The translations under genes were made by a program, and so were the position numbers. DNA of 64,000 bases. Source: an uncultured cyanobacterium (GTDB lineage Bacteria; Cyanobacteriota; Cyanobacteriia; PCC-6307; Cyanobiaceae). The stretch is from contig CAIJRN010000034.1 in NCBI GenBank assembly GCA_903823115.1, forward strand, positions 62,001 through 126,000, written 5' to 3'. Of the stretch, positions 1,592 through 64,000 are shown in pieces (positions within the stretch are counted from its first letter, which is position 1; each line of letters begins with the position of its first letter). A model generated the notes under the pieces. It had not been told where the DNA came from, did not search any database, and saw only the letters and a list, made by a program, of their open reading frames with translations.

Positions 1592-2854
1592 TTGGAACCG
1601 CTCCAGAGCCTGCGCGGCACGGTGGATCTGCTGCCCGCCCAGACCCCGTTCTGGCAGGGGGTCGAGGCCGTGGCCCGCGAACAGTTCCGTCGGGCCGGCA
1701 TCGCCGAGATCCGCACACCGCTGCTGGAGGTCACCGAGCTGTTCGCCCGCGGCATCGGTGAAGCCACCGATGTGGTCGGCAAGGAGATGTACACCTTCCT
1801 CGATCGCGGCGAGCGCAGCTGCACCCTGCGGCCGGAGGGCACGGCCTCGGTGGTGCGCGCCGCCATCCAGCACGGATTGCTCAGCCAGGGGCCCCAGCGC
1901 CTCTGGTACGGCGGGCCGATGTTCCGCTACGAGCGGCCCCAGGCGGGCCGGCAGCGCCAGTTCCATCAGATCGGTCTGGAGTTCCTCGGCTTCGCCGATC
2001 CCCGCAGCGACGCCGAGGCGATCGCCATCGCCTGGGATCTGCTGGCGGAGCTGGGCCTGGCCGGCCTGGCGCTGGAGCTCAACTCTCTTGGCAGCTCCGA
2101 CGATCGGCAGCGCTACCGCCAGGAGCTGGTGGCCTGGCTGGAGGGGCACCGTGAGCAGCTGGATCCCGACTCCCAGCAGCGCATCGTCACCAATCCGCTT
2201 CGCATCCTTGATTCCAAGAACCCGGCCACCCAGGCCCTGCTGGCCGGGGCTCCCACCCTGGCGGACTCCCTGGCACCCGAGAGCCAGGAGCGCTTCGAAC
2301 GGGTGCAGCAGGCCCTGACAGGCCTGGAGATTCCGTTTGTGATCAACCCTCGCCTGGTGCGGGGCCTGGATTATTACAGCCACACGGCCTTCGAGATCAC
2401 CAGCAGCCAGCTCGGCGCCCAGGCCACCGTCTGCGGTGGCGGCCGCTACGACGGTCTGGTGGGCCAACTGGGCGGGCCGGCCACTCCCGCCGTGGGCTGG
2501 GCCCTCGGCATGGAGCGGCTGGTGCTGCTGGCCCAGGCGGCTGCAGATCCAGCGGCCCTGCAGGCTGCGGTGCCCGATCTCTATGTGATCAGCCGCGGCG
2601 CCGAGGCCGAAGCCCTGGCCCTGCCGCTGGCCCGCCGCGCCCGCGCCCAGGGACTGGCTGTGGAGCTGGATCTGACGGCCGCCGCCTTCGGCAAGCAGTT
2701 CAAGCGCGCCGACCGCAGCGGTGCCCCCTGGGCGGCGGTGATCGGCGAGGCGGAAGCGAGCGAAGGGGTGGTGGTGCTCAAGGATCTGCGTGATCCCGAG
2801 GGTGGCGATCTGCGGCTGACTCCCGAGGAGCTGCTGGCGCGCCTGCTGGCCTGA
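1592..2854 (+). CDS. hisS: Histidyl-tRNA synthetase
   Basis: 420 residues, normal for a bacterial class II HisRS. Motif 2 ([16 protein letters not shown]) lies near 109-125. The histidine-binding signature [12 protein letters not shown] is near 253, and motif 3 (GWALGMERL) is near 302. The C-terminal anticodon-binding domain follows. It charges tRNA-His in the cytosol. The start is a TTG at 1592 giving an N-terminus beginning [14 protein letters not shown], the family's usual opening. No ATG exists nearby in frame, so TTG is the best choice but not certain. Confidence 0.93.
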
Positions 2855-2932
2855 AGCCGTTCCCGGCCAACCCAGGCCGGCAGGCCTTGTCCTGACTGTC
2901 GGCAAACCAACAAGCGACCCCTTTGGGGCCAT

Positions 2933-2958
2933 AAAAAAGCGGACCCGTTGGGGCCCGC
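2933..2958 (-). terminator. Rho-independent terminator of the psbEFLJ operon
   Basis: Read on the minus strand this is an 8-bp GC-rich stem (GCGGGCCC / GGGTCCGC, one G-U pair) with a CAAC loop, followed by six T residues. It lies about 40 bases downstream of the psbJ stop and fits transcription from psbE through psbJ. Confidence 0.75.
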
Positions 2959-2995
2959 TCCGGGGGTGTGAGGGTGGTGACGTGGGGGACCGGTT

Positions 2996-3196
2996 TCAGG
3001 CCGAACCCACGGCCACGTACGAGCCATAGAAAAACAGGCCAACCACGAAGATCACGGCCATGCCACCGGCGGTGGCCACGAGCCACAGGGGCAGTACGCC
3101 TTCGGTCCAGCGGCTCTTCCAGGCCACGGCCGGGCGACCATCAGGAAGACGGTCCGGGATCCGGCCGTCGGGGAGAGAGGATTTCTTGCCGCTCAT
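2996..3196 (-). CDS. psbJ: Photosystem II reaction centre protein J
   Basis: 66 residues with one hydrophobic helix near 39-60 ([22 protein letters not shown]) and the family's closing GSYVAVGSA. The soluble N-terminus is longer than the roughly 40-residue core protein, as often seen in marine and freshwater Synechococcus. PsbJ is a single-span thylakoid subunit next to cytochrome b559. It is the last gene of psbE-F-L-J; the terminator lies just downstream. Confidence 0.95.
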
Positions 3197-3211
3197 TCGG
3201 GTGCCTCCGGA

Positions 3212-3331
3212 TCAGTTGAAGAAGTAGCTGGAAAACAGCACGCCCGTGACGAACACGAACAGCAGCCCCAGGTAGAGGCTGGTGCGATTCAGTTCAACCG
3301 GGAGGTTGTTGGGGTTGTCGTTGCGTTGCAT
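3212..3331 (-). CDS. psbL: Photosystem II reaction centre protein L
   Basis: 39 residues, the exact family length. It opens [20 protein letters not shown] and ends in the conserved helix closing SSYFFN. The single membrane span is near 17-37. PsbL sits at the PSII dimer interface and supports the acceptor side. It lies 15 bases before psbJ and 79 bases after psbF in the operon. Confidence 0.96.
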
Positions 3332-3410
3332 GCCGATGATGGGGGGAATCGGGTGTCAGCTCAGGGTCGTCACCACAGCTGGACACTGCGGTGACGGGAT
3401 TGCAGCCCGA

Positions 3411-3548
3411 TCAGCGGCGGACGAACTGCATGGCGGCCAGGGCCCCAAGGAAGAAGACCGTGGGGATGCCGAGAGCATGAACCGACAGCCAGCGCACCGT
3501 GAAGATCGGGTAGTTGCGCGGCGTGGTGGGAGCGGGAGCTTGGGTCAT
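3411..3548 (-). CDS. psbF: Cytochrome b559 beta subunit
   Basis: 45 residues. The haem-ligand histidine is in RSLAVHALGIP (about residue 24), within a single helix that ends MQFVRR, the invariant C-terminus of PsbF. Together with PsbE it binds the b559 haem in the PSII core. The ATG at 3548 is 4 bases after the psbE stop, so the two subunits are translationally coupled. Confidence 0.97.
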
Positions 3549-3552
3549 GGCC

Positions 3553-3801
3553 TTATTTCATGCGCAGGTCGAGCTGGCTCTTGCCTTCGTAGCGCTGGCT
3601 GACGACGGGAGCCTTGGTCTCCTGAGCCTGGAAGTAGGCGTCAGGCCGGGGGGTGCCGAAGGCGTCATACGCCAGGCCGGTGGAAACGAACATGAAGCCG
3701 GCCAGGAAGATGGCAGGCAGGGTCACCGCATGGATGACCCAGTAACGGATGCTCGTGATGATTTCGAAGAACGGACGTTCCCCTGTAGAGCCGGCAGCCA
3801 T
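3553..3801 (-). CDS. psbE: Cytochrome b559 alpha subunit
   Basis: 82 residues, standard length. The opening [20 protein letters not shown] and the haem histidine in [10 protein letters not shown] (about residue 24) identify PsbE. The lumenal tail contains the conserved [10 protein letters not shown]. It is the first gene of psbEFLJ; the promoter should lie in the 131 bases between 3802 and 3932, but I see no convincing -35/-10 pair there. Confidence 0.97.
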
Positions 3802-3932
3802 GGTGTAGAGCGTTCAGCCAGAAGATCCTAGAGGTCGCTCTGCTGCCCCCGGGAGTGGACCGGGGGGTTGGTTACAGAGGGATGTAGTTCGGCCTGGGCA
3901 GGGCCTGACGATCGGCGTCAGCGGGGGCTGGT

Positions 3933-4961
3933 TCAGCCCACCCAGCGCAGCAGGGAGCCCCGTTCGCCCAGGACAAAGCCCTTGTCGCTGCCTTCGAAGT
4001 GGATGCGGGTGAAGTTGGTGGGTTGCTCAGCCCCCACCGGATCCCGCTGCCAGCTGCCGCCGCCATCGCGGCTCACCAGCAGGGTGCCGCTGCCGCCGCC
4101 GGTCCAGATGGCGCCACTGGGATCCCAGGCCAGGTCCAGATAGCCGAAGCCATTGGTGATCGGCACCACCGCCTTGCCCCAGGCCTCGAGGTCATCGGCG
4201 TCGGTGTTGAAGCGCAGCTGGGCACCCCGGGCCAGCATCCAGAGGTTGCCGTCCGGCTGGAAGCCCATCGACTGCAGCCGCTGGCTGCTCATCCGCTGAT
4301 GCACCTGCCAGGTCTCCTGGCCGGGGGTCCAGCTGGCGAAGAAATTGCCCAGGCCGCTCACGCTCACATAGCGGCCGTCAGTGGAGCGGCGCAGATCGCG
4401 CACGGCCCCGGCGGCGTCGCTGACCAGAGCCTGCCAGCTGCTGCCGGCGTTGCCGGTCTGGTAGACAGCCCCCACATTGGTGGCCAGCTCGGCCTGGTTC
4501 GGGCCCAGGGCCGTGATCAGGTAGGGCTCGCCGGGCAACTTGGTGTCCAGCAGCAGGCGACTCCAGCTCTTGCCGGCATCGTCGCTGTGCAGCAGCAGGC
4601 CGGGCTGGCCGACGATCCAGCCCTCATTGCCCTTGAAATCGATGCTGATCAGGCGGAAGTTCTCCTCCGGCGGCAGATCGAGCGCCCGGGTTTCCCAGCT
4701 GGCACCGCCGTCGTCGGTCTCCATGATCAGGCGGTTGCTGCCCACCAGAAAGCCGTGGTCGGCGCTGGTGAAGGCCAGGTCCAGCGGATTGGAGCTGGTG
4801 GCGAGCGGCACGGCCTGCCAGGGGCTGGCGCTGGCCGTCGGCAGACCGGTGGTGACGCAGCCGCTGAGGCCGAAGCCCAGGCTGACCACCAGCAGCAGGT
4901 TCAGCAGTGGAGAAAGCAGTCGGCCCAGTCGCCATTGGCGGGGCACGGAAATCCGGTTCAC
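3933..4961 (-). CDS. ycf48: Photosystem II assembly factor Ycf48 (HCF136 homologue), lipoprotein
   Basis: 342 residues with a bacterial lipoprotein signal: basic N-terminus, a hydrophobic stretch, and lipobox LSGC near 32-35. The body is a seven-bladed beta-propeller with recurring DDGGxSW and similar BNR-like repeats (TDDGGASWE, SDDAGKSW, RDGGGSWQ), as in Ycf48. The protein helps assemble the D1 precursor with PSII at the lumenal side of the membrane. It lies between rubA and psbE, the conserved cyanobacterial order in which all three serve PSII biogenesis. Six bases separate it from rubA. Confidence 0.95.
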   Translation of the reverse strand: MNRISVPRQWRLGRLLSPLLNLLLVVSLGFGLSGCVTTGLPTASASPWQAVPLATSSNPLDLAFTSADHGFLVGSNRLIMETDDGGASWETRALDLPPEENFRLISIDFKGNEGWIVGQPGLLLHSDDAGKSWSRLLLDTKLPGEPYLITALGPNQAELATNVGAVYQTGNAGSSWQALVSDAAGAVRDLRRSTDGRYVSVSGLGNFFASWTPGQETWQVHQRMSSQRLQSMGFQPDGNLWMLARGAQLRFNTDADDLEAWGKAVVPITNGFGYLDLAWDPSGAIWTGGGSGTLLVSRDGGGSWQRDPVGAEQPTNFTRIHFEGSDKGFVLGERGSLLRWVG

Positions 4962-7089: not shown

Positions 7090-7665
7090 ATGCCTGACGA
7101 CACCGCCGCCGTTACCGCTCCCGCTCTGGCGCCCGGCCCGGTGGGCACCTGGCTGAGCCAGCAGGGTTTTGACCATGAGCTGCTGCCGGCCGACCATCTG
7201 GGTGTGGAGATTCTGGGCATCGAGCCTGATGTCCTGCCTCTGGTGGTCACGGCGCTCAAGGCCAGTGGCTTTGATTACCTGCAGTGCCAGGGCGGCTACG
7301 ACGAGGGCCCCGGTGGTCGCCTGGTGAGCTTCTATCACCTCGTCAAGTTGGCCAGCGTGGCCCATCACATCGCCCCCGCCGCCGCTCCAGCCGGAACCAC
7401 CCAGACCCTCCCCGCTGACCTCCGCCTTGAGGAGGTGCGGCTCAAGGTGTTCCTGCAGCGCGATGGAGCCCTCACCATCCCCAGCCTCTATGGCCTGTTC
7501 CGTGGCGCTGACTGGCAGGAGCGCGAAACCTTCGACATGTTCGGCATCCAGTTCGCGGGCCATCCCCATCCCAAGCGGCTGCTGATGCCGGAGGACTGGA
7601 AGGGCTACCCGCTGCGCAAGGACTACGTGCAGCCCGATTTCTACGAGATGCAGGACGCCTACTGA
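7090..7665 (+). CDS. ndhJ: NAD(P)H-quinone oxidoreductase subunit J (NuoC type)
   Basis: 191 residues. The 30-kDa-subunit signature [10 protein letters not shown] is near 157, followed by [20 protein letters not shown]. It is a hydrophilic-arm subunit of NDH-1, bound next to NdhK and NdhH. It is separated from ndhK by 199 bases in which I see no gene or clear hairpin; cotranscription is likely but not shown. Confidence 0.95.
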
Positions 7666-7719
7666 CCTGCTGATCCAGAAGCCCTGATCCCGAAGCTCGC
7701 TCCAAGATCAGGGGAAAGC

Positions 7720-7776
7720 TTCTGCGCAGGCCTGCTGCTGAGTCTGCGCAGACTGCTCTTCTGCGCAGACCGGCCT
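7720..7776. repeat. CTGCGCAG palindrome cluster between convergent genes
   Basis: Three copies of TCTGCGCAG lie at 7720, 7743 and 7760, the central one inside a perfect 14-bp palindrome AGTCTGCGCAGACT (7741-7754). The cluster sits between the convergent ends of ndhJ and the amidohydrolase gene. It can form short hairpins and may act as a weak bidirectional terminator, but there is no T-tract. Confidence 0.4.
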
Positions 7777-9756
7777 TCAGCGCAGGCTGGCCTGAGAGGC
7801 CCGCATCAGGCGCCCCAGCGTGGCCCGATCACTCGCAGGCAAGGGCTTGGGCTGGGCCAGCGGATCCCCATGGTTGTGGGGTCCTTCCGGGCGGATGGCC
7901 GATGCAGCCGGGATACTGGCGAGTTCCTGGGCAGACATCCGGTAGACCGGCTGGCCTTCTTTGATCGTTTCCAGCACCCGGATCGTGCCGATGCTGCCAG
8001 GGTCCACCTTGAGTGGATTGCGCTCGATGATCACCAGATCGGCGAGCTTGCCGGTTTCCAGGCTGCCCTTGCTCTTCTCCTCCTTGATTTGATAGGCGGC
8101 CATCACGGTCACGGCGCGTAGGGCGTCGTAGGGGCTGATCCGTTCGGCCGGTCCTATGACCCGGCCGCTGGCGGTGCGGCGGTTCACGGCGGCATCCACC
8201 AGCCCCAGAATCGTCGGCTGGGGGGACACCGGGGCGTCGTGGGAGAGGGTGTATGGCAGGCCCGCCATCTGGAAGCTGTGGGCGGCGGCGGCCTTGGCGG
8301 CCCGCTCCGGGCCCCAGAACCGCTCCACCGCGTCACCGCCGGAGGAGATCGAGGCCACCAGGAAACTCGGCACGGCGCCGACCGCCTTCATGCGCTGGAT
8401 CTGATCAGGCCGCAGATAGCTGGCATGGATGAACACCGGACGGTGGTCGCTCCAGCCTTTTTTCTTGATCACCGCTTCGATCACGCGCAGGGCCTGATCG
8501 GCGGCGGCATCGCCATTCATGTGCATGTTGATCTGGATGCCGGTGTTCCAGAACCGCTCCACGCCGGCCAGCAGCACCGCATCCGGGATCTGTTCGTAGC
8601 CCCGATATTCGCCGGATTTACCCGGGGGGTTGGTGGTGTAGGGCTGGGTGAACCAGGCGGTGTCAATGCTGCCATCGAGCCAGTATTTGATGCCCCCCAG
8701 CCGCACGCGGTTGATGTAGCGGCGATCGAGATCCGGTCTGGCCGCCAGCAGCAGGGCGGCGGTGCCGGTGGAGGAGGGGGTGTAGGCCTGGGAGACGCCA
8801 TAGGCGGCATCGATCACCTCATTGGTGGCCGAATCCTTGGCACAGATGTAGAGATCGATCGGCAGCAGTTTCTTGTCGATCGCGTTGCGCACCACCGCGA
8901 TGTCGTCCGCGCCCAGACCGATGCCACAATCCTGGGCGGTGGTCTGGCCAAAGCGCGCCCAGGCGGCTGCTCCAGCCAGGATCGCGCCATCGGCCAGCTT
9001 GCCGGTGAAGGCGGGCCGTTGGCTGCGTACCAGATTGAGGGCCGTTTCCTCCATCGGGCCCGAGGGTTCCCGGCTGCCGCTCTGGCGGGCAAAGGCGCCA
9101 CCGGTGGGATCGGCCGTGGCTGCGGTGACTCCAGCCAGTTTGAGCAGGGCGCTGTTCGCCGATCCCAGGTGGCCGGAGGAATCGACGATCATCACGGGCC
9201 GATCGGGCGACACCCCATCCAGCTCGAGGGCGGTGGGCGTGCGCCCTTCTTTCAACGCTCTGGCCTGATAGCCAAAACCCACGATCCAGGCTCCCGCCGG
9301 CACCGAGGCGGCATGGGCCTTGAGACGGGCCACCAGCTCCGGGATGTCCTTGACACCTAAAAGATCGGCATCCATCTGGTTCTTGCCGTAATAGACCATG
9401 TGGCCGTGGGCATCAATGAACCCCGGCAACAGGGTGTGGCCGGCCAGATCGACCCGTTTGGCGCCAGCTCCGGCGGCCTTGATTGCTCCGGCCAGAGGGC
9501 CCACAAAGAGGATCCTGCCGCCCTTCTCCACCAGTGCTTCGGCGTAGACCGGCTTCGGGCCGGCCATGGTGAGGATGTCGCCGCCGCTGTACAGGGTGGC
9601 CGTGGCTGGGGGAAGGGGAACCGCTGCCCAGGCGGCACCGGTGGCGCTGATCAGGCCGAAGGCCAGGCCGAGGCTGCTGGCTAAGCCAAGGCTGCAGGCT
9701 AAGCCAAGGCTGCTGGCCCGAAGACGAACGCAAACCGGGGAAGGGAAAGTGGCCAT
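7777..9756 (-). CDS. Exported amidohydrolase, YtcJ-like (metal-dependent hydrolase)
   Basis: 659 residues from ATG 9756. It opens with a signal peptide (about residues 1-35) whose core contains a repeated SLGLA unit and ends near AAWA. The amidohydrolase metal motif DAHGHM is near 100; a later IHASYLR and a SHDAPVSP block supply further ligands. The C-terminus has KLADLVIIERNPL, typical of the composite beta-domain. Family members (amidohydrolase_3) hydrolyse C-N bonds in cyclic or acylated amides; the substrate is not predictable here. The export signal suggests periplasmic action. The frame extends 62 codons upstream of the chosen start, but without a secretion signal there. Confidence 0.82.
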   Translation of the reverse strand: MATFPSPVCVRLRASSLGLACSLGLASSLGLAFGLISATGAAWAAVPLPPATATLYSGGDILTMAGPKPVYAEALVEKGGRILFVGPLAGAIKAAGAGAKRVDLAGHTLLPGFIDAHGHMVYYGKNQMDADLLGVKDIPELVARLKAHAASVPAGAWIVGFGYQARALKEGRTPTALELDGVSPDRPVMIVDSSGHLGSANSALLKLAGVTAATADPTGGAFARQSGSREPSGPMEETALNLVRSQRPAFTGKLADGAILAGAAAWARFGQTTAQDCGIGLGADDIAVVRNAIDKKLLPIDLYICAKDSATNEVIDAAYGVSQAYTPSSTGTAALLLAARPDLDRRYINRVRLGGIKYWLDGSIDTAWFTQPYTTNPPGKSGEYRGYEQIPDAVLLAGVERFWNTGIQINMHMNGDAAADQALRVIEAVIKKKGWSDHRPVFIHASYLRPDQIQRMKAVGAVPSFLVASISSGGDAVERFWGPERAAKAAAAHSFQMAGLPYTLSHDAPVSPQPTILGLVDAAVNRRTASGRVIGPAERISPYDALRAVTVMAAYQIKEEKSKGSLETGKLADLVIIERNPLKVDPGSIGTIRVLETIKEGQPVYRMSAQELASIPAASAIRPEGPHNHGDPLAQPKPLPASDRATLGRLMRASQASLR

Positions 9757-55481: not shown

Positions 55482-57068
55482 TCAGTGCAGGAAATGGCGC
55501 CGACCCGTCGCCAGCATCGCCAGGCCCAGTTCGTCGCAGGCCGTGATCGAATCCCCATCGCGCAGGCTGCCGCCGGGGTGAATCACCGCGGTGATGCCAT
55601 GGCCCGCCGCCAGCCGCACGGTGTCGTCAAAGGGGAAGAAGCCATCACTGGCCAGCACCGCCCCTCGGGCCCGCTCGCCGGCGGCGGCCAGGGCCAGCTG
55701 GGCTGAACCCACCCGGTTGGTCTGGCCGGCGCCGATGCCCAGGGTCTGACCGCCCGCCGCGACGGCAATGGCGTTGGAGCGCACGTGGCGCACCACTTGC
55801 CAGGCGAAGCGCAGATCCGCCAGCTCCTGCGGTGTGGGCTGGCGGCGGCTGACCACCTGCCAGCTGCCTGGGTCGATCGGCTGGTCATCGAGCTCCTGCA
55901 CCAGCACGCCGCCGAGCACGCTGCGCAACTGCCGCCGCTGGGCGCGGCCGATGGCCGCCGCTGGCAGCGCCAGCAGTCGCAGGTTGGTCTTGGCCGCCAG
56001 GCGCTGGCGGGCCTCGGCACTGAAGGCCGGCGCCACCACGCACTCCAGGAACAGGCCGGCCAGGTGCTCGGCCGCAGCCCCATCCACCTCGCCATTGAGC
56101 GCCACGATGCCGCCGAAGGCCGACACCCGATCGGCGTCGAGGGCCCGCAGCAGGGCTTCGGCCGTGGTGGCAGCGGTGGCCACGCCACATGGATTGGTGT
56201 GTTTGATCACCACAGCGGCCGGCTGGGCCGCCGCCCCGAGCTGGCCGGCGGTTTCCGGGGCCTGGCCGTAGCCGAATTCGCGCACGGTGGCGAGGGCCGC
56301 CTCGAGATCAATGAGGTTGTTGTAGCTGAGTTCCTTGCCCTGCAGCTGCTCGGCGCCGCCCCAGCCCGCCTCCGCCTCGCCGTACCAGGTGGCGCTCTGG
56401 TGGGGATTTTCGCCGTAGCGCAGGCTCTGCTGGGCCGGCAGGTCCAGGCGGAGCGGCGCTGCCCCTGCTCCCTCGGCGGGGTCGGCTTCGATGCGGCTGG
56501 CCAGCCAGGCGGCGATCGCGGCGTCGTAGCTGGCGGTGTGGCGGAAGGCGGCCAGGGCCAGTTGGCGCCGCAGGGCCTCATTCACCTGCCCGGCGTCCAG
56601 GGCCGCCAGGAAATCGCTGTATTGGCCGGGATCGGTGAGCACCGCCACATCGGCATGGTTCTTGGCCGCGGCGCGCACCATCGCCGGCCCACCGATGTCG
56701 ATGGTCTCGACGGCGGTCTCCCAGCTCACCGCCGGATCGGCGACGGCCTGGCGGAAGGGATAGAGGTTGACCACCACGACATCAATGGCATCGATCCCCT
56801 GGGCCGCCAGATCAGCCTGGTGGGCCGGATCGGAGCGGCGGGCCAGGATGCCGCCGTGGATGCGGGGATGGAGGGTCTTGACCCGTCCGCCCAGGATCTC
56901 CGGAGCGCCGGTGTGATCCGCCACCTTGGTGACGCTCAGCCCGGCGGCCGCCAGGGCCGCGGCGGTGCCGCCACTGGAGAGCAGCCGATAGCCATGGCGC
57001 AGCAGGCCCTCGGCCAGGGGCAGCAGGTCGTGCTTGTCGGAAACGCTCAGGAGAGCCGTGGGGGCCAT
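55482..57068 (-). CDS. purH: Bifunctional AICAR transformylase / IMP cyclohydrolase
   Basis: 528 residues. The N-terminal IMP cyclohydrolase has [20 protein letters not shown] and [17 protein letters not shown] (about 80-96). The C-terminal transformylase has the KHTNPCG motif near 288 and [25 protein letters not shown] near 485. It catalyses the last two steps of purine synthesis to IMP. Full length with ATG 57068. Confidence 0.96.
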
Positions 57069-57122
57069 GACGGCAGCGGAGGCGGTTCAGGGGCCAACCT
57101 ACGCAGCAGCAGCACAAGTGGC

Positions 57123-57806
57123 ATGAGCCTTTCCGACCTTCCGACCCGCTCCACAGACGGGCAGCCCCACGACGACGGCAGCGCGATCCGGGTGGGACCG
57201 GAGCACGCCGAACGGCGCCTGGTGCTGCTGCATGGCTGGGGCGCAGACGCCGATGACCTCCTCGATCTGGGGCAGGAGCTGGTGGATGGGACGGTGGATC
57301 TGGTGGCGCTTCGGGCGCCGGGGATCCATCCCGCCGGCATGGGCCGCCAGTGGTATGGACTGGCGCCGGCGCCGGACTGGCAGGAGCTGCCCAGCGCCCG
57401 GGAGGCGCTGTGGCAGCGGCTGGAGCAGCTGGCGCAGACGGTGCCGCTGCAGCACACGGTCCTGCTGGGCTTCTCTCAGGGAGGGGCGATGGCGGTGGAT
57501 GTGGCCACCGGCGGCGGCCATCCGTCAGCGGCGGCGCTGCCGTTGGCGGCACTGATCTCCTGCAGTGGCTATCCCCATCCGGGCTGGAGCCCCAGGGCCG
57601 AAGGTCTGAAGGTGCTGCTCACCCATGGCCTGCAGGATTCGGTGGTGCCCGCCGAGGCCAGCGAAGCCCTGGAGCAGGAGCTGCAGGCCGCCGGAGCCAG
57701 CGTCAAGCGCCAGCTGTTCACCGGTGGCCATGGCATCGATCCCGATCTGCTGCCGCTGATGCGTGAGTTCCTGGCGAGGGCCTGGGAGGCTGCCGGGGCG
57801 GGGTGA
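57123..57806 (+). CDS. Alpha/beta-hydrolase, carboxylesterase/phospholipase type
   Basis: 227 residues from ATG 57123. The oxyanion region LVLLHGWGADADDL is near 33-46, the nucleophile serine in GFSQGG near 118-123, the acid in HGLQDSVVP near 175, and the histidine in GGHGI near 207. This is the phospholipase/carboxylesterase-2 family. It is divergent from purH with 54 bases between, an arrangement common in picocyanobacteria. It is the last core gene before the cassette region. Confidence 0.88.
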   Translation: MSLSDLPTRSTDGQPHDDGSAIRVGPEHAERRLVLLHGWGADADDLLDLGQELVDGTVDLVALRAPGIHPAGMGRQWYGLAPAPDWQELPSAREALWQRLEQLAQTVPLQHTVLLGFSQGGAMAVDVATGGGHPSAAALPLAALISCSGYPHPGWSPRAEGLKVLLTHGLQDSVVPAEASEALEQELQAAGASVKRQLFTGGHGIDPDLLPLMREFLARAWEAAGAG

Positions 57807-57907
57807 GCGGGGGCCTTTCCGGATCTGAGCAGCGCTGCCCGCGATCGTCACGACTTCCACAAGCGACGCCCGAACCGTGCGCAACCACCGGCGATGAGGG
57901 TGATTGA

Positions 57908-58051
57908 TGGGGTTGGGCCCTTGCGTTCAACGGCTGTGCAGAAGCCTTCGGCTACGGATTCACCCAGCTCTGTCTGGTTGCCAGGGATCCGAACAGCATG
58001 ACCGGGCCGCTGGCGGAACCGCTCAAAGCCCAGCTTCCAGTCAGCGTCTGA
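57908..58051 (+). pseudogene. Short coding remnant, family unknown
   Basis: The frame after a stop at 57905 reads GCAEAFGYGFTQLCLVARDP then MTGPLAEPLKAQLPVSV and ends at TGA 58049. It has no proper start and is 47 codons long. Protein-like composition suggests the tail of a lost gene. Low certainty. Confidence 0.35.
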
Positions 58052-58189
58052 GGGGCTGCGGCACCCTGGAGCTCAGCGCCCTGAATCGATGTCACCTCAG
58101 CCGGAGGCGGCAGGGTGGATGGAGCTCTCGAGCTGCAAACATGCCGCGGCGGATTCCCAATTTCCGAGATGGGCGGCGCGCATCAATTC

Positions 58190-58477
58190 TGGCGGCGAGG
58201 GTCTCCACCAGCGGCGTATCACCGGCTCCAGTTGCTCGCATTCGGCCAACAGGGCAAAGGGCACCTGCTGGCGCAGATCGCCCAGGCCGGCCACGCTCGT
58301 TGTGCCGTTGGGGTGGTTCACAAAGGTGGCCTTGATCTGATTCCTCAGCGCTTCTGGGTTGTTGATGTTGGCCTCCAGCACGGAGCGGTAGACAAAGAAG
58401 CTAAGGGCCTCAAAGCCTGCCTCGGCTTGCTGCTGCTTGCGGTCTTCGTTCAGGGAGAGTTCGGCGAGCCGATTGTC
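58190..58477 (-). pseudogene. Fragment of a type I restriction enzyme HsdR C-terminal domain
   Basis: Within an open frame (58097-58537) the stretch DNRLAELSLNEDRKQQQAEA, then ALSFFVYRSVLEANINNPEA, then GLGDLRQQVPFALLAECEQLEP resembles the helical C-terminus of type I restriction (R) subunits. The preceding helicase/nuclease domains, HsdM and HsdS are absent. The frame's beginning and end do not look coding. Probably a relic of a restriction system at the edge of the cassette region. Confidence 0.55.
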
Positions 58478-58496
58478 GAGGGGATTATGTGTTGGG

Positions 58497-58582
58497 GCTA
58501 GCGCTCCAGATCGGTGGCGGGCAGTGGCTCTCCGCACTTAAAAGGTATTCGTGCTTCCGACTGTTGAATCTTGACGCTCAGC
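58497..58582 (-). other. Degenerate attC-like site (site A)
   Basis: An imperfect inverted repeat of 86 bp: GCTAGCGCTCCAGATC at the left pairs with the right arm ending GAATCTTGACGCTCAGC. Its arms are related to those of sites B and D (shared GAATCTTGA and CAAGATC-like text), but the RYYYAAC/GTTRRRY boxes have decayed. It lies 11 bases after the methyltransferase stop, where the 3' end of that cassette would be. Confidence 0.5.
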
Positions 58583-58593
58583 TATAAATAAGA

Positions 58594-59469
58594 CTATTTG
58601 CCAAGGTTTGGTGTCTTCTGCGCAATGTGATACGTTGATAGGTATGAAAGGCGAATCTCCCCGGCCCCCTTCTCCAGGATGCATTGCCTAAGCCCGGCAA
58701 ATAAGACATTTCTCGTGCGGTGATCAAGCTTTAGGTATGATGAGTACGTGCCGAGCAGGGATATGTATTGATCAGATGTATAGGTCAAAGAGGTTTCCAT
58801 GGTTTCTGTGGCCAGGTTTCGAAACCTGCCAGAGTCAAGCATCATTTGACCAAGCCCAATCAGAATGGCTTCCTGTGTTTTCCTGTCTTCGTATCGGCCA
58901 AGAGAGGGGGCATGAAGTTTATATACATCTGAAAGCGCATCCTGCATCGACTTGCAGGGTTGCAGCTCTTTGTTCCACAAGAGTATTAAATGGCCGTCCT
59001 CCCTCAGTGCGCTACTGGCCTTGGCATAGCTAATCTCGGCAGGGATCCAATGCATGGAGATTGCGGCGAGAACTGCATCAAATGCTTCAGGCTCTAGGTT
59101 CCATTCTTCGAAGGATTTGTTGATCACTTCTACTGTTGGATAAGATTTGCAATTCATTCTTGCTAAGTTGCAAAAATCTGGATTGGGCTCAATACAGACC
59201 ATCCGGCATCCGAGTTCTGCAAAGGAGGTTGTGGCTGTTCCCGGGCCACTCCCAATTTCAAGAATTCTTGAGGATGAAGACAGCTCGGCTGCGTTGACCG
59301 CCTTTCCAACAAGTTCGCTGGGGTATTTCGGCCTTGTGGAGTTGTAGTCCTCTGCGGCGGGAGAGTACCAATTCTTTCTCTCTTCAAGATCTGTACTTGC
59401 GATACACTTAACTGCTTGCCTAAGCTCCTTGTAGTCCATCCTCGGTTTTATGTTCGGCTTAGGAGTCAA
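58594..59469 (-). CDS. Class I SAM-dependent methyltransferase
   Basis: 291 residues (ATG 59469; a second ATG at 59439). The SAM-binding motif I is ILEIGSGPGTATTSFAELG near 69-87. Motif II/III text FDAVLAAISMHWIP near 129-142 and the post-SAM LILLWNKE follow, as in the Methyltransf_11/25 group. The substrate is unknown. Base composition and codon use are less GC-rich than the core genes, indicating transfer. It is followed by site A and preceded by site B, so it forms one putative cassette. Confidence 0.82.
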   Translation of the reverse strand: MTPKPNIKPRMDYKELRQAVKCIASTDLEERKNWYSPAAEDYNSTRPKYPSELVGKAVNAAELSSSSRILEIGSGPGTATTSFAELGCRMVCIEPNPDFCNLARMNCKSYPTVEVINKSFEEWNLEPEAFDAVLAAISMHWIPAEISYAKASSALREDGHLILLWNKELQPCKSMQDALSDVYKLHAPSLGRYEDRKTQEAILIGLGQMMLDSGRFRNLATETMETSLTYTSDQYISLLGTYSSYLKLDHRTRNVLFAGLRQCILEKGAGEIRLSYLSTYHIAQKTPNLGK

Positions 59470-59500
59470 TTGATGCTTGCGTTTCTTCCAAGATTAATCA

Positions 59501-59587
59501 GTCTAACGCTCAAGATCAGAAGCGGGCAGTTGCGCTTTGCATTCATCAGGCATTCTGGGCCCCGCCCGCTGAATCTTGATGTTGGAC
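59501..59587 (-). other. attC-type recombination site (site B)
   Basis: 87 bp. On the cassette-sense (minus) strand it begins GTCCAAC (RYYYAAC) and ends GCGTTAGAC (GTTRRRY). The arms CATCAAGATTCAGCGGGC and GCCCGCTTCTGATCTTGA pair with unpaired bases (an extra T in one arm, AG in the other), the asymmetry expected of attC folded as single strand. It lies 15 bases after the hicA stop. Confidence 0.78.
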
Positions 59588-59601
59588 AGCTGTAGATTTC
59601 G

Positions 59602-59826
59602 TCATAGAAGATCTTGCAATTGCTCTCTTGAGATCTTGGTATCCCGAAGGATGCTTGCCAAAAGGCCAGGCCCTAATGTTTCACCCGAGTGAACGGGAAC
59701 AACTGTTATGCGTCCGTCTGGATGCTTGAGTAAGTGGTGGCTACCTTTGACCCTGATCACTTCAAAGCCGATTCCTTTGAAGGCTGCGATGATTGTCCTT
59801 CCTGAAACCGCAGAAAATCTCGTCAC
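59602..59826 (-). CDS. hicA: HicA-type mRNA interferase toxin
   Basis: 74 residues. The dsRBD-like HicA fold shows in IIAAFKGIGFEVIRVKGSHH then LKHPDGRITVVPVHSGE and TLGPGLLASILRD; the catalytic His is in GSHHLLKH (about 29-30). It cleaves mRNA and is neutralised by HicB. Its ATG overlaps the upstream HicB stop by 4 bases. The order here is antitoxin first, then toxin. Confidence 0.9.
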   Translation of the reverse strand: MTRFSAVSGRTIIAAFKGIGFEVIRVKGSHHLLKHPDGRITVVPVHSGETLGPGLLASILRDTKISREQLQDLL

Positions 59827-60047
59827 ACTTCAACGGTAACTCGTTGAACGCCTACAAAGTCAAGTGACTCGTGACCAGTGCCCGCCACCTCAAGGCAGAG
59901 CTCAATTGCTTCCTTGATGCGCTCCATCAACTGATCCAATGATTTCGCCTGCGTGTGACAGCCAGGTAGAGCAGGCACAGTCGCAACGAAGTACCCTTCT
60001 GAATCCTTTTCGACCACTACATCAAAATGTCTAGACATTGAGGTCAC
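59823..60047 (-). CDS. hicB: HicB-type antitoxin
   Basis: 74 residues. The partial RNase H-like HicB fold is seen in FDVVVEKDSEGYFVATVPAL then PGCHTQAKSLDQLMERIKEAIEL. A C-terminal DNA-binding domain is not evident, so autoregulation may be weak. A strong purine-rich ribosome site GAGGAGG lies just upstream. ATG 60047, with ATG 60038 as alternative. Forms one cassette with hicA between sites B and C. Confidence 0.88.
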   Translation of the reverse strand: MTSMSRHFDVVVEKDSEGYFVATVPALPGCHTQAKSLDQLMERIKEAIELCLEVAGTGHESLDFVGVQRVTVEV

Positions 60048-60049
60048 CT

Positions 60050-60095
60050 CCTCAACTCATGGTAGCTGCTTTGCCGCTGCATGCCGGGGTTAGGC
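60050..60095 (-). other. Short attC-like element (site C), uncertain
   Basis: 46 bp. On the minus strand it starts with a perfect GCCTAAC box and ends GTTGAGG; between them CATGCAGC and GCTACCATG pair imperfectly. It sits 30 bases after the glycosyltransferase stop, the expected position, but is only half the length of the other sites and partly overlaps the hicB leader. Confidence 0.45.
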
Positions 60096-60125
60096 TCGGG
60101 CGTGGTCGCCTTCCGGTCGCGGAAG

Positions 60126-61427
60126 CTACTGGGAGGAAGGATGGTCGAATGTCGCATCGAGACGGGACTCGATGAGAGTTACCGCTGCCTTTACTCCGTT
60201 CTCTCTCCCCATTGCTGCCCCGATTTTCGAGGCTCGGACCGCCATCTCCGGGCATGCGAGTACCTGTGCGATTGCGTTGGCCAGTTCCCTCGACGACAGA
60301 CCCTTGCGTGTCTGCGTCTCTCCAGCAACCCGAAGTCGCTCCAACTCGGAGCCCCAGAAGAACTGGTCGGACATGTGTGCGACGACGAGGGACGGGCGAC
60401 CTGAGAGCAAGCTCGACTGGGTCGTTCCGGCTCCTCCGTGGTGAACAATGACGGAGCACCTCGGAAAGACTCGCCTGTACGGAGCCATCCTTACTTTGAA
60501 GACCGGCCCCTCGACCGGAATGTCTTTGAGATCTTCCCACGGGAGTTGGAACACCGCGCGACACCCGAGCCGCTTGACCGTTGACTCCCAGATTGCCGCC
60601 GCCTCCCGGATGTACTTCAGGTCGTGGAGCATCATGCTTCCGAATGTGAAGTAGACGGGCGGGGTACCCTGCGAAAGGAACTCGTTGAGCCCGTCGGGGA
60701 GATTCTCACCGGACAAGAGACATGGAGGATTCAGAAAGCCACACACCCTGTTGTTCTCCCCCCAGTCTCCGGGCGCCCGACAGATCTCGGGGCTGACTGC
60801 CAGGAGGTTGAGCTGCTCGGAGGCCCATGTCTGCGTCATGACATCTGAGTTCGGTTCGAGACCCTCCCTCGTGCGTAGTGCGTTCACCCTCGGGAGGAAT
60901 ATCCGGTTGATCATCGAGCGCACGAGCCGCCATCCCAACGGGTAGGACCATCGCCCGAGGTCCGGCAGACCGGGAGGGTGAATCTCGCGGGACGGGAGGC
61001 AGTTGTGGACGACGTTGACTGTTGCCATTGGGAGTCGCGCTTGTTCCGCTGCGATGCGCAATGGGAAAACGAAGAAGTGGCCCACGACGCAGTCGTTGGA
61101 TGCGCAGAGGTCCTTCGCTGCCGAGAACATGGATTCCATGACGGGGTCGAAGCCGTACTTCATGACGAGTTCGGCTTGCCGGATCGGGTTGCCGACCTGG
61201 ATGATCTGCCGCCAGACCTCGGCGACCCTCTCGGGAGAAGCCGACACCGGGCTTGGTAGAGCTTGGAGGCTATATCCGGATTCCCTGGCCAGGCCGCTGT
61301 AGTCCCGACCGACGTTGTCGGTGACAACCAACGTGACCTCGTGACCCGCATGAGTCAGCCCTGCGGCAAGAGCGGTGAAGGGTTGAACATCTCCCTCGCT
61401 GCCCCAAGTCTGCAGACCGATCTTCAT
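60126..61427 (-). CDS. GT1/GT28-type glycosyltransferase (sterol/macrolide glucosyltransferase-like)
   Basis: 433 residues from ATG 61427. The N-terminal GT28-like domain opens KIGLQTWGSEGDVQPFTALA then GLTHAGHEVTLVV. The donor-binding C-terminal domain has YFTFGSM near 275 and VIVHHGGAGTTQSSLLSGRP near 345-364, the sugar-nucleotide site of the UGT superfamily. Relatives glucosylate lipids, sterols or antibiotics; the acceptor cannot be predicted. It is GC-richer than the neighbouring cassettes, suggesting a different donor. Confidence 0.87.
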   Translation of the reverse strand: MKIGLQTWGSEGDVQPFTALAAGLTHAGHEVTLVVTDNVGRDYSGLARESGYSLQALPSPVSASPERVAEVWRQIIQVGNPIRQAELVMKYGFDPVMESMFSAAKDLCASNDCVVGHFFVFPLRIAAEQARLPMATVNVVHNCLPSREIHPPGLPDLGRWSYPLGWRLVRSMINRIFLPRVNALRTREGLEPNSDVMTQTWASEQLNLLAVSPEICRAPGDWGENNRVCGFLNPPCLLSGENLPDGLNEFLSQGTPPVYFTFGSMMLHDLKYIREAAAIWESTVKRLGCRAVFQLPWEDLKDIPVEGPVFKVRMAPYRRVFPRCSVIVHHGGAGTTQSSLLSGRPSLVVAHMSDQFFWGSELERLRVAGETQTRKGLSSRELANAIAQVLACPEMAVRASKIGAAMGRENGVKAAVTLIESRLDATFDHPSSQ

Positions 61428-61479
61428 TTCAGCGCCTTTGGTCTGAAAGTGCAGGGTTACCGAGAACCAGGCCTTCAAA

Positions 61480-61564
61480 GCCTAACGTTCAAGATCAGAA
61501 GGGGGGAGTCACTTTGGCTAAGGGGACAGCCTTCGCCCCCGTCTTCTGAATCTTGATGTTAGGC
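61480..61564 (-). other. attC-type recombination site (site D)
   Basis: 85 bp with perfect terminal boxes GCCTAAC and GTTAGGC. The arms CATCAAGATTCAGAAGACGG and TTCTGATCTTGAACGTTAGG pair, with an extra T and other extrahelical bases in one arm. The cassette-sense end ACGTTAGGC matches the canonical attC 1R box. It overlaps the brnA stop codon and precedes the glycosyltransferase gene. Confidence 0.85.
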
Positions 61565-61837
61565 ACCCTTCGCATCGCCAGTGGAGTGAGCTTCGATATA
61601 GTCCTTCAGAACAGCATCCATGCGGGCTTGCCAACCAGCTCCAGAAGCCCTGAAATAGTCAATAACCTCAGGACTATACCGGATTGAAACCAGCTGCTTT
61701 TTATTTGCCAACTTTGGGCGGCCGCGCAGCACCCGCATGGGGACCATCGCGCTCATCTGCTCGTCTGTAAGCGGAAGGGCATCAGGATCTGATTCCGCTG
61801 CCGATGTAATCAACCGATCTTCCTCAAGCGTCGGCAT
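61559..61837 (-). CDS. brnA: BrnA-type antitoxin
   Basis: 92 residues from ATG 61837. An acidic N-terminal part (EEDRLITSAAESDPDALPLTD) is followed by RGRPKLANKKQLVSIRYSPE then VIDYFRASGAGWQARMDAVL, the ribbon-helix-helix region of BrnA. It binds BrnT and its own promoter. An ATG at 61885 would add 16 residues. It overlaps brnT by 14 bases. The stop lies inside attC site D. Confidence 0.87.
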   Translation of the reverse strand: MPTLEEDRLITSAAESDPDALPLTDEQMSAMVPMRVLRGRPKLANKKQLVSIRYSPEVIDYFRASGAGWQARMDAVLKDYIEAHSTGDAKGA

Positions 61838-62123
61838 CTTCAGGTTGACCTTTCGCAATGGCTTTGACACAGTGATTGGCCTCACGGCGATTGGCTCTGC
61901 GTAGGCTAATAATTCGCCTTACTGGCTCGCGATCAACAAAGGCTACAAAAAAGAGTATGTCTTCAATTGGAGCCAAGGCAACCATCCTTGCTTCACAATA
62001 GTCAGCCCGATCATCAATCCAGACGAGTGCTGCGTCCCAGCTGAGGTCAGCTGCGGCCGCCAAGGAGAGGCCGTGCTTGCTCAGATTGGTCGCGTCCTTG
62101 CCAGGGTCGAAATCGAACTCCAC
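61824..62123 (-). CDS. brnT: BrnT-type ribonuclease toxin
   Basis: 99 residues. The family opening FDFDPGKDATNLSKHGLSLA is near 3-22, followed by RMVALAPIEDILFFVAFVDR and RIISLRRANRREA near 70-82, the BrnT (DUF497) core. It cleaves RNA like a RelE-fold toxin. First gene of brnTA, with a palindrome immediately upstream. Confidence 0.9.
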   Translation of the reverse strand: MEFDFDPGKDATNLSKHGLSLAAAADLSWDAALVWIDDRADYCEARMVALAPIEDILFFVAFVDREPVRRIISLRRANRREANHCVKAIAKGQPEDADA

Positions 62124-62129
62124 ACTTTA

Positions 62130-62141
62130 CCGTAGCTACGG
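62130..62141. promoter_or_regulatory. Perfect 12-bp palindrome upstream of brnT
   Basis: CCGTAGCTACGG lies 6 bases from the brnT ATG. BrnA-type RHH antitoxins bind palindromes in their own promoters, so this is a candidate autoregulatory operator. The role is inferred from position. Confidence 0.45.
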
Positions 62142-62186
62142 AAAGGCGGCCCGTCAACTTCGCCACAACAAGCGGCCTTTAGTTGG

Positions 62187-62275
62187 GCCTAACGCTGCCC
62201 CTGAGTGGCAGGCAAGGACTCTAGAGCGCGAGCCGGGAATCGGTGGTGGCCTGTCCACTCAAGGGGCTTGTATCC
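62187..62275 (-). other. attC-type recombination site (site E)
   Basis: 89 bp. Cassette-sense end GCGTTAGGC is perfect. The arms GCCCCTTGAGTGGACAGGC and GCCTGCCACTCAGGGGC pair over 17 bp with two unpaired bases (T and A) in one arm, a clear attC-like bulge pattern. The opposite terminal box (GGATACAA) has decayed from RYYYAAC. It lies 6 bases after the second hicB stop. Confidence 0.72.
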
Positions 62276-62281
62276 GTTCAT

Positions 62282-62614
62282 CTATGCCGTGACACTTCCC
62301 TGGAGTGCTTCCTGAACGAGCGTGTTGAGACTCTTTCCCTGAGCCTCGGCAGTCATCGCTAATTTCTCGTGTAGTTCAGGCGGAATCCGAAGATTGAATT
62401 TGCCTGAAAAGTGTCTGCGGGGCTCGATTCCTTGCTCCTTGCAGACGTCAAGAAAGACTTCCAATGACTTTTTGAACTCACGGCGAAGCTCATCTGGACT
62501 AGATCCATAGAAGTCCGCTCCTCCAGAAAGCCCAAGAATTTCCCCACGAAATTGATCTGTTTCCTCGTCGTACTCAATTTTGGCGTGGTAGCCATCCACT
62601 TTCATCAGATTCAT
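62282..62614 (-). CDS. hicB: HicB-family antitoxin with C-terminal ribbon-helix-helix
   Basis: 110 residues. Residues about 1-60 are the HicB core (GYHAKIEYDEETDQFRGEIL, then SPDELRREFKKSLEVFLDVC). Residues about 68-105 are an RHH DNA-binding domain (FNLRIPPELHEKLAMTAEAQ then GKSLNTLVQEAL). It should repress its own operon. Its ATG overlaps the hicA stop by 4 bases; here the toxin gene comes first. Confidence 0.9.
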   Translation of the reverse strand: MNLMKVDGYHAKIEYDEETDQFRGEILGLSGGADFYGSSPDELRREFKKSLEVFLDVCKEQGIEPRRHFSGKFNLRIPPELHEKLAMTAEAQGKSLNTLVQEALQGSVTA

Positions 62615-62865
62615 GGTGTCACTCCGTGTTCTTCAAACCACTTGCGGATTGAAGCAACAGCACCCTTGTCTGTATCGGGCGAGGGATGGGGTCTGTGGAA
62701 GACCCTGACTTCGCCAAACAGAACGACCGCGACTCGGCTGCCCGCCCTTTCACTGACATCCCCACCAAGCTCCTGAAACAGGGCTTCGATGTCCCTCCAC
62801 GGCAAGCTGCCGCTTATGGGACGGGAGAAGATCAGCTCAAGAGTGCGCTGGTGCTTCCGCTTCAT
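62611..62865 (-). CDS. hicA: HicA-type toxin
   Basis: 84 residues: HQRTLELIFSRPISGSLPWR then DIEALFQELGGDVSERAGSR and VRVFHRPHPSPDTDKGAVAS. This is the longer HicA type, in which GSR/FHRPHP replaces the compact GSHH motif of the first pair. First gene of the second hic pair in the array, unrelated in detail to the one at 59602-60047. Confidence 0.88.
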   Translation of the reverse strand: MKRKHQRTLELIFSRPISGSLPWRDIEALFQELGGDVSERAGSRVAVVLFGEVRVFHRPHPSPDTDKGAVASIRKWFEEHGVTP

Positions 62866-63009
62866 CCCAGGATAGTACTGCCCCTCGGTACCAGATGCGG
62901 CTTCCGGTCAACGGCTTGCTGGATACGGATAAGGTTCAGCATCAGCATCAGCATCAGCGCTTACCATCACCTGGCCGCCGAGAGAATGGCTACGTTCTGC
63001 TCAATGGCA
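62866..63009. other. Inter-cassette region with no clear attC
   Basis: An attC would be expected here after the DUF2442 gene, but I find no matching box pair. A 6-bp repeat CAGCAT runs from about 62937 to 62958. The site may have been lost or replaced, or these two gene pairs entered as one cassette. Confidence 0.4.
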
Positions 63010-63306
63010 TCAGTGCGTAACAGGTGGAGGCTCAGGTGAATGGCATGGTTGGAAAGTGCTCTTCGCTCTCAGCGGAAACCTCTCAGGATGGCGTATCGAC
63101 TCAACAGATAAGTCAACGTCCAAAGCAGGCCAATGGAGATGATCGGCCGTCGGTCGCAGGACATTAAGGATCTGCTGTATAGTGGCCGACCTGAACCAGG
63201 GAAAATCTGAATAAGGCAGAGCTAGCTCTTCATCGTCAATGAGTATCCAGATGCAATGACCGGATACATTGGTTACCTCAGCCCCTAAAGTGGTTGTTCC
63301 AGGCAT
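63010..63306 (-). CDS. DUF2442 family protein
   Basis: 98 residues. DDEELALPYSDFPWFRSATI then QQILNVLRPTADHLHWPALD and VDLSVESIRHPERFPLRAKS match DUF2442, usually found beside DUF4160 as a toxin-antitoxin-like pair. The last 15 residues diverge from the family. It overlaps the DUF4160 gene by 29 bases. Confidence 0.85.
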   Translation of the reverse strand: MPGTTTLGAEVTNVSGHCIWILIDDEELALPYSDFPWFRSATIQQILNVLRPTADHLHWPALDVDLSVESIRHPERFPLRAKSTFQPCHSPEPPPVTH

Positions 63307-63517
63307 TGATGATCTCCTGTTGGCGTGACTCGACCAGGCGCTCTGCGTCTTTAGCCTTTGCTGAGCTTAGCCCAATGTTGTGTGCGAGTTCGATGGTCGG
63401 CCTGAGCCAGAACTTCGCCTCACCATCTGGATGACTGACATGTATATGAATACGGCTTTCCTCTCGAGAGAAGAAGAAAAAACGAAATTCGCCATCCCGG
63501 AAGACTGTTGGTGACAA
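63278..63517 (-). CDS. DUF4160 family protein
   Basis: 79 residues: SPTVFRDGEFRFFFFSREES then RIHIHVSHPDGEAKFWLRPT and a helical end. This is DUF4160, the usual partner of DUF2442; the pair behaves like a type II toxin-antitoxin module in context, though activity is not established. First gene of the pair. Confidence 0.87.
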   Translation of the reverse strand: MSPTVFRDGEFRFFFFSREESRIHIHVSHPDGEAKFWLRPTIELAHNIGLSSAKAKDAERLVESRQQEIINAWNNHFRG

Positions 63518-63640
63518 GCAGGCTCCCCTATTAGTTCGTCAGCATAGCCTCGTTCCCAGTGCGGTGACAGGACAGCAGCTGCAGCGACAAGTCATTGATG
63601 CTCAGAATTCGGGCTGGACCCGGAACGGCTGTCCGCATCT

Positions 63641-63730
63641 TTCCAACGCTCGCCATCACCAGGTCGCAAGGAGCCTGGGAGGAAAACATATAGTGAACGG
63701 AGGAGGCCCTGGTGCATGGCGGTGTTAGGT
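63641..63730 (-). other. attC-type recombination site (site G)
   Basis: 90 bp. Cassette-sense start ACCTAAC is perfect, and the end is GCGTTGGAA. The arms CGCCATGCACCAGG and CCTGGTGATGGCG pair with one unpaired G. It overlaps the original stop codon of the Mrr-type gene (63725-63727), as is common for cassettes. Its arms differ from sites A, B and D. Confidence 0.75.
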
Positions 63731-64000
63731 AGCCTCCTCATCGAAGTAATCACTATCAATTTTGGGAATACGCAAAACACGTGCGTTGACTCCAATCTCA
63801 TGGTCAATCATCAAACCTTAGAGACGTAGGCCGTCAACAAGGACGATTCCCTCAACAGAGCGGGCAAAATCCAATGCCTGCGCAGTATATGTCGATGTGG
63901 TAATAAAGACTCCTTTTCTGGCTTTATGTCCCGCCAGTGCGCCGTAAAAAGCCTGCAAATCTGGTCTGCCAACACTGCTCTGCCAACGTTTTGCTTGAAC
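63725..64000 (-). pseudogene. mrr: Mrr-type restriction endonuclease, C-terminal part, with in-frame stop (cut by window edge)
   Basis: The minus frame entering at base 64000 reads VQAKRWQSSVGRPDLQAFYG then GVFITTSTYTAQALDFARSV and GIVLVDGLRL, the Mrr catalytic core with the QAKRW active-site strand. A TAA at 63818-63820 interrupts it, after which the same frame continues GLMIDHEIGVNARVLRIPKI and stops at 63725-63727. So the enzyme lacks its last 30 residues unless the stop is read through or is a sequencing error. The N-terminal part is outside the window. Confidence 0.78.

Follow-up and report, generated by a model that had tools for sequence, protein, structure and literature searches.

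A cassette-borne Mrr-type restriction gene with a premature in-frame stop, probably inactivating, in a Cyanobium-like cyanobacterium

The window analyzed here is a stretch of 64,000 nucleotides from an uncultured cyanobacterium of the Cyanobiaceae, and it corresponds to positions 62001-126000 of contig C34 (CAIJRN010000034.1). A minus-strand Mrr-type gene enters it at the high-numbered end and shows an in-frame TAA after codon 279 (Table 1). As most of this gene lies beyond the window, an adjoining stretch (L002) was fetched for the rest of it. The earlier note on this DNA had called for the part beyond position 64000, and the gene proved to be complete upstream: the ORF of 279 codons (L002:7819-8658, minus strand) starts with an ATG. 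Pfam analysis of the truncated protein indicated an Mrr_N domain (PF14338) at residues 6-92 (profile positions 1-86 of 87, E 3.4e-23) and an Mrr_cat nuclease domain (PF04471) at residues 167-279 (profile positions 3-111 of 115, E 2.9e-36), and the ORF was matched by the PADLOC profile mREase_IV (7.1e-104). Asp205, Gln221, and Lys223 were invariant in two homologue alignments, one of which contained the window row, and all three are retained before the stop. Residues of the PD-QxK type are described as catalytic in passages of two publications (PMC12707154, PMC3874153); on our reading, Asp205 is the D of the D...QxK nuclease residues.

Past the premature TAA, the reading frame continued without a frameshift for 30 further codons, GLMIDHEIGVNARVLRIPKIDSDYFDEEAT, to a second TAA located inside ACCTAAC, the R'' box of the attC site of the cassette. 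The mREase_IV profile spanned the stop, matching over positions 1-316 of its 317 with "1 TAA" inside, and the tail aligned residue by residue with the C-termini of intact homologues, so that the continuation is more than chance. On the homologue ends compared below, the second stop is the normal end of mrr. These results agreed in position, frame, and kind with the earlier note, which had described a single nonsense change about 30 codons before an original stop lying inside an attC site.

Table 1 Features in and beside the window
Feature	Position	Strand	Basis or remark
ORF with HsdR C-terminal relic	58097..58537	-	match to G002 frame; shared with G011
Weak, degenerate last attC	58497..58582	-	covariance model, 24.7 bits, E 0.00023
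attC of array	59501..59587	-	attC scan, covariance model
attC of array	61480..61564	-	attC scan, covariance model
Window part of mrr-holding block (to about 65503)	62932..64000	-	other cassettes here in G011
attC of mrr cassette	63641..63730	-	attC scan; covariance model 54.5 bits (one of four building sites)
Original stop codon TAA, in attC R'' box	63725..63727	-	same place in closest intact copy
Orphaned 30-codon C-terminal tail	63728..63817	-	conserved in homologues
Premature in-frame TAA after codon 279	63818..63820	-	frame; mREase_IV profile through stop
3' part of mrr ORF, Mrr_cat nuclease domain	63818..64000	-	ATG at equivalent of window position 64657, outside window
attC upstream of mrr, beyond window	64692-64778		scan allowing extrahelical base

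The ends of homologous proteins were compared. tblastn matches at 1e-10 or better were found at 111 loci; after two repeat fetches of the window locus (L001 and L003) were dropped, the alignment consisted of 109 rows, window included, and three loci present twice reduced these to 106 distinct proteins. Of the rows, 102 ran on for 25-33 residues, 5 stopped short, and 2, which are one locus fetched twice, left their contig still open after 20 residues, giving one distinct protein of this kind. Among the distinct proteins, 100 of 106 continued for 25-33 residues to their own stop, in a set biased towards good matches, since it draws on the best 80 of 121 matches of a genome scan. Five of the 106, window included, stopped short, and the window copy was the only one with a stop exactly here. 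The others were a mrr relic in Cyanobium G025 that stops at codon 31 and of which the remainder is largely missing (L013), a copy whose tail lies in a different frame beyond about codon 274 (L039), a copy interrupted in frame by a stop codon at the QxK motif (L062), and a copy on a viral contig whose best match was broken up (L116). The proposal that homologues normally end at the position of the premature TAA was therefore discarded. Because the window copy ends at residue 279 and lacks the full-length C-terminus of the subfamily, whereas 100 of 106 proteins run on, we class it as truncated, a probable pseudogene, and not as a functional Mrr.

Some mrr match was found in 25 of the 60 genomes searched, and the 36 same-genus relatives contained four copies of the subfamily with at least 70% identity: G029 (94%), G016 (73%), G026 (71%), and a fragment in G025 (71%). 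A more decayed mrr relic was observed near attC sites in this last Cyanobium genome (L130; G025:C17, about 7605-7916). Short Mrr-like pieces, about 53% identical to the query, also lie near contig ends in the window's own genome (C6:22-242 and C55:13-120), and are perhaps a further copy broken by assembly.

The closest copy was that of Cyanobium sp. FGCU6 (G029:C68; JANWUR010000052.1), with 94% protein and 88% DNA identity. It lies on the same cassette: DNA similarity stops at both borders of the cassette, and the original stop is likewise in the attC site. Its frame, in contrast to that of the window, is intact and encodes 310 residues. The 30 tail codons of the two copies showed 6 synonymous and 0 amino-acid-changing differences, whereas in the 279-codon body 74 differences were synonymous and 16 codons were changed. 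The chance of 6/6 synonymous changes in an unconstrained tail was between about 7e-5 and 6e-4, according to the transition bias, or about 0.009-0.025 if the window branch received just 3 of them. A tail without sign of decay fits a young nonsense change; as the test covers the window and FGCU6 branches together, and tail and body did not differ (Fisher p 0.59), this sequence comparison gives the youth of the change moderate support.

The exclusively synonymous tail differences would also agree with readthrough, or with a restart just after the stop, in which case the tail would still be made, either attached to the protein or as a separate piece. Indeed, TAAGGTTTGATG provides a same-frame TTG and ATG within nine bases past the stop, behind AAGG. 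However, the closest intact copy has identical TTG and ATG codons, so that nothing unusual is required to explain them, and the synonymy follows equally well from a young mutation. We regard translation of the tail in either way as highly improbable.

The residues removed by the premature stop were then considered. Filtering at a length of 295 residues left 75 sequences, of which 57 intact ones were chosen; in these, Gly289, Pro298, Asp301, and Phe305 of the tail were invariant and several neighbors were nearly invariant. In the rows of the wider alignment, the same residues were found in 106/106 (Gly289), 85/104 (Pro298), 102/102 (Asp301), and 102/103 (Phe305). A PDB search by sequence gave no relative at E 0.01, and the FGCU6 protein was modelled with AlphaFold2 (mean pLDDT 76.8, pTM 0.47). 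The last well-predicted helix of this model comprised residues 276-285, and residues 292-302 and 304-310 were below pLDDT 50. AspBHI aligned over model residues 154-295 (Z 11.8) and MspJI over residues 154-296 (Z 11.0). According to the model, truncation after residue 279 interrupts the nuclease domain in its last helix and takes away a tail that is conserved, though structurally uncertain. The loss of half of this helix together with the tail suggests that the truncated Mrr is probably inactive, and residual or altered activity is possible.

A 279-residue protein that is still an active nuclease, with a dispensable or regulatory tail, would be consistent with the nearly complete Mrr_N and Mrr_cat matches, with the retained Asp205, Gln221, and Lys223, and with the low confidence of the modelled tail. 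In passages of a review, the activity of E. coli Mrr is described as controlled by its oligomeric state (PMC12707154), which makes a regulatory end conceivable. We nevertheless consider an active truncated protein unlikely: the tail is conserved, no end at this position was seen among the other 105 distinct homologues, and the cut falls inside a predicted helix. A bolder version, in which the tail regulates the enzyme or controls its oligomers and the window gene encodes a functional variant, tail-less or made in two pieces through a translational restart, that is kept for altered timing of the nuclease, seems very doubtful to us. Inactivation of the shortened protein is the reading that we retain.

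Integron core sites follow a known consensus, and attC sites contain an extrahelical base; the scan that found the four sites given next permitted this base. A covariance model was built from four attC sites (59501-59587, 61480-61564, 63641-63730, and 64692-64778), and these were re-found by construction; beyond them, it detected the weak site at 58497-58582 and further sites in relatives. The mrr cassette is bordered upstream by a GTTAGGT core at the end of the attC site 64692-64778 and downstream by its own attC site. Core sites, attC, and the borders of similarity to FGCU6 agree: mrr sits on an integron gene cassette, flanked by core sites and followed 3' by an attC, as had been claimed. 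Ten other ORFs of the array had Pfam matches: a methyltransferase, HicA and HicB twice each, a glycosyltransferase, BrnT, BrnA, DUF2442, and DUF4160. Their frames are open, one HicB-like ORF covering only 48 of 123 profile positions, and mrr appears to be the one clearly interrupted gene among the array ORFs with Pfam matches.

This comparison bears on whether the stop is itself a base-call or assembly error in an intact mrr. The assembly is a draft of 86 contigs, a single base difference creates the stop, and the tail has not decayed, all of which an error would explain. However, the stop lies well inside a contig of 187,848 bases, and with the ten other ORFs open, nothing argues for a local error. 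We judge an error to be quite unlikely, and a genuine substitution is assumed in what follows.

A close relative, G011, carries a related array at the same chromosomal site. The two could be aligned over window-based positions 56000-59508 (93.7%), 60074-62932 (98.8%), and 65503-68237 (94.7%), whereas the block 62932-65503, which holds mrr, is replaced by other cassettes in G011. G011 also lacks, at the corresponding place, the HicAB cassette of 59508-60074 (near 59.6-60.05 kb), a difference in presence or absence that has the size of one cassette. A GTTAG core marks the junction at 65.5 kb; that at 62.93 kb is a core in G011 and degenerate in the window. The absence of the mrr block from the G011 site fits a recent gain in the window's lineage, and a loss from G011 instead is possible. 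At the leading edge of the array (L002:9502-9508, equivalent to window positions 65501-65507), the flank is common to both genomes as far as GAGTTAG and is followed by differing first cassettes. This arrangement suggests an attI-like insertion point without a neighboring integrase.

No integron integrase was detected on contig C34 (TIGR02249, E 0.001), and the array accordingly does not constitute a complete integron. The best integrase match of the genome (C38:7413-8204, 371 bits) has an internal TAG, with its N-terminal part in another frame, and shares its contig with attC sites at 2339-4376; a second, short integrase fragment is located on C40. An integrase above the family cut-off was present in 28 of the 42 genomes of the genus, this one included. 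In integrons, the integrase and the attC sites are usually divergent. In contrast, on G029:C17 we observed an integrase (+, 94128-95060) and attC sites (+, 96571-101154) on the same strand.

A second restriction gene fragment lies near the other end of the array. Query residues 15-106 of the ORF 58097-58537 showed 51% identity to the C-terminal region of an HsdR-like frame of 985 aa in G002. The ORF had no Pfam or PADLOC match of its own at 0.01, a plasmid search with the piece gave no match, and matches were found in 3 of 40 genomes searched, the window's own included. G011 has an 87% identical HsdR relic, with a TGA, beside the same flank, flank and fragment falling within one 93.7% alignment. 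Since the relic is common to both genomes at the same place, it is older than their split and separate from the mrr event. The earlier note had taken mrr and the HsdR fragment as two broken restriction genes at the ends of the array. Both the mrr stop and the fragment are real; the relic, however, is located beyond the last attC found, and with its presence in G011 this led us to reject a joint loss at both ends. The same note had suggested that restriction was acquired and then lost. For mrr, a gain fits and a loss is probable, whereas the HsdR relic is older and other restriction gene frames appear to have been kept. One frame of the genome matches a Type I REase (positions 3-997 of the 1029 in the profile, over the part examined), and Type III mod and res frames share one contig; a general loss of restriction finds no support.

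A possible cost of mrr was also considered. A conflict with a Type III methyltransferase, an idea taken from what is reportedly the title of a 2011 paper by Tesfazgi Mebrhatu et al., was examined as a reason for the loss, and was set aside. With PF01555 at E 1e-8 in six genomes, the window's genome gave one match, G029 two, G026 four, G011 one, and G016 (64% complete) and G025 (which has a mrr relic) none; all eight matched frames also matched PADLOC MTase_III, two as part-length pieces. The comparison did not discriminate, because G029 and G026, with intact mrr cassettes, carry Type III methyltransferase genes. A cost is plausible in principle, since E. coli Mrr, according to passages of one publication, was discovered because foreign adenine methyltransferases provoke the SOS response through it (PMC3874153).

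Here, we propose that the gene is a Type IV restriction gene of the Mrr type on an integron cassette, and that in a Cyanobium-like lineage one substitution made a stop 30 codons before its normal end. The shortened protein keeps the N-terminal domain and the D...QxK nuclease residues and lacks half of the last well-predicted helix and the conserved C-terminal tail, and is probably inactive. We assign this reading a probability of roughly 0.75; it draws on direct observation of the stop, of the borders of the cassette, of tail conservation, and of an intact close relative, whereas the youth of the change and the loss of activity are inferred. The mrr of the window is probably an ordinary cassette pseudogene. 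It adds a case and no principle: in a genus rich in integron integrases, a defence gene on a cassette has probably been silenced by a single substitution, and the example is a clean one. The conserved tail, whose role is uncertain, offers a testable point about Mrr.

Among the literature matches listed for Mrr pseudogenes and for premature stops in integron restriction cassettes, no title concerned the present case, and none combining Cyanobium with integrons concerned Cyanobium integrons by title, which does not imply absence from print. Passages of one publication place restriction among the commonly reported cassette functions and Cyanobacteria among the integron-bearing phyla (PMC8618304). 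Compared with known cassette restriction genes, the gene is interrupted here, on a contig without an integrase. The protein shares with MspJI and AspBHI, which are modification-dependent nucleases, the nuclease-domain fold seen in the Mrr model (Z 11.0 and 11.8, respectively), whereas their N-terminal domain is described as different and SRA-like in parts of PMC3874153 and PMC12707154. Among the closest known systems is the EcoKMrr-type Type IV restriction endonuclease, whose architecture is given as Mrr_N plus Mrr_cat in a section of PMC12707154. The window copy has the same order of domains, the QxK-type residues, and the PADLOC mREase_IV match, and differs from this type in the loss of the conserved last 30-31 residues.
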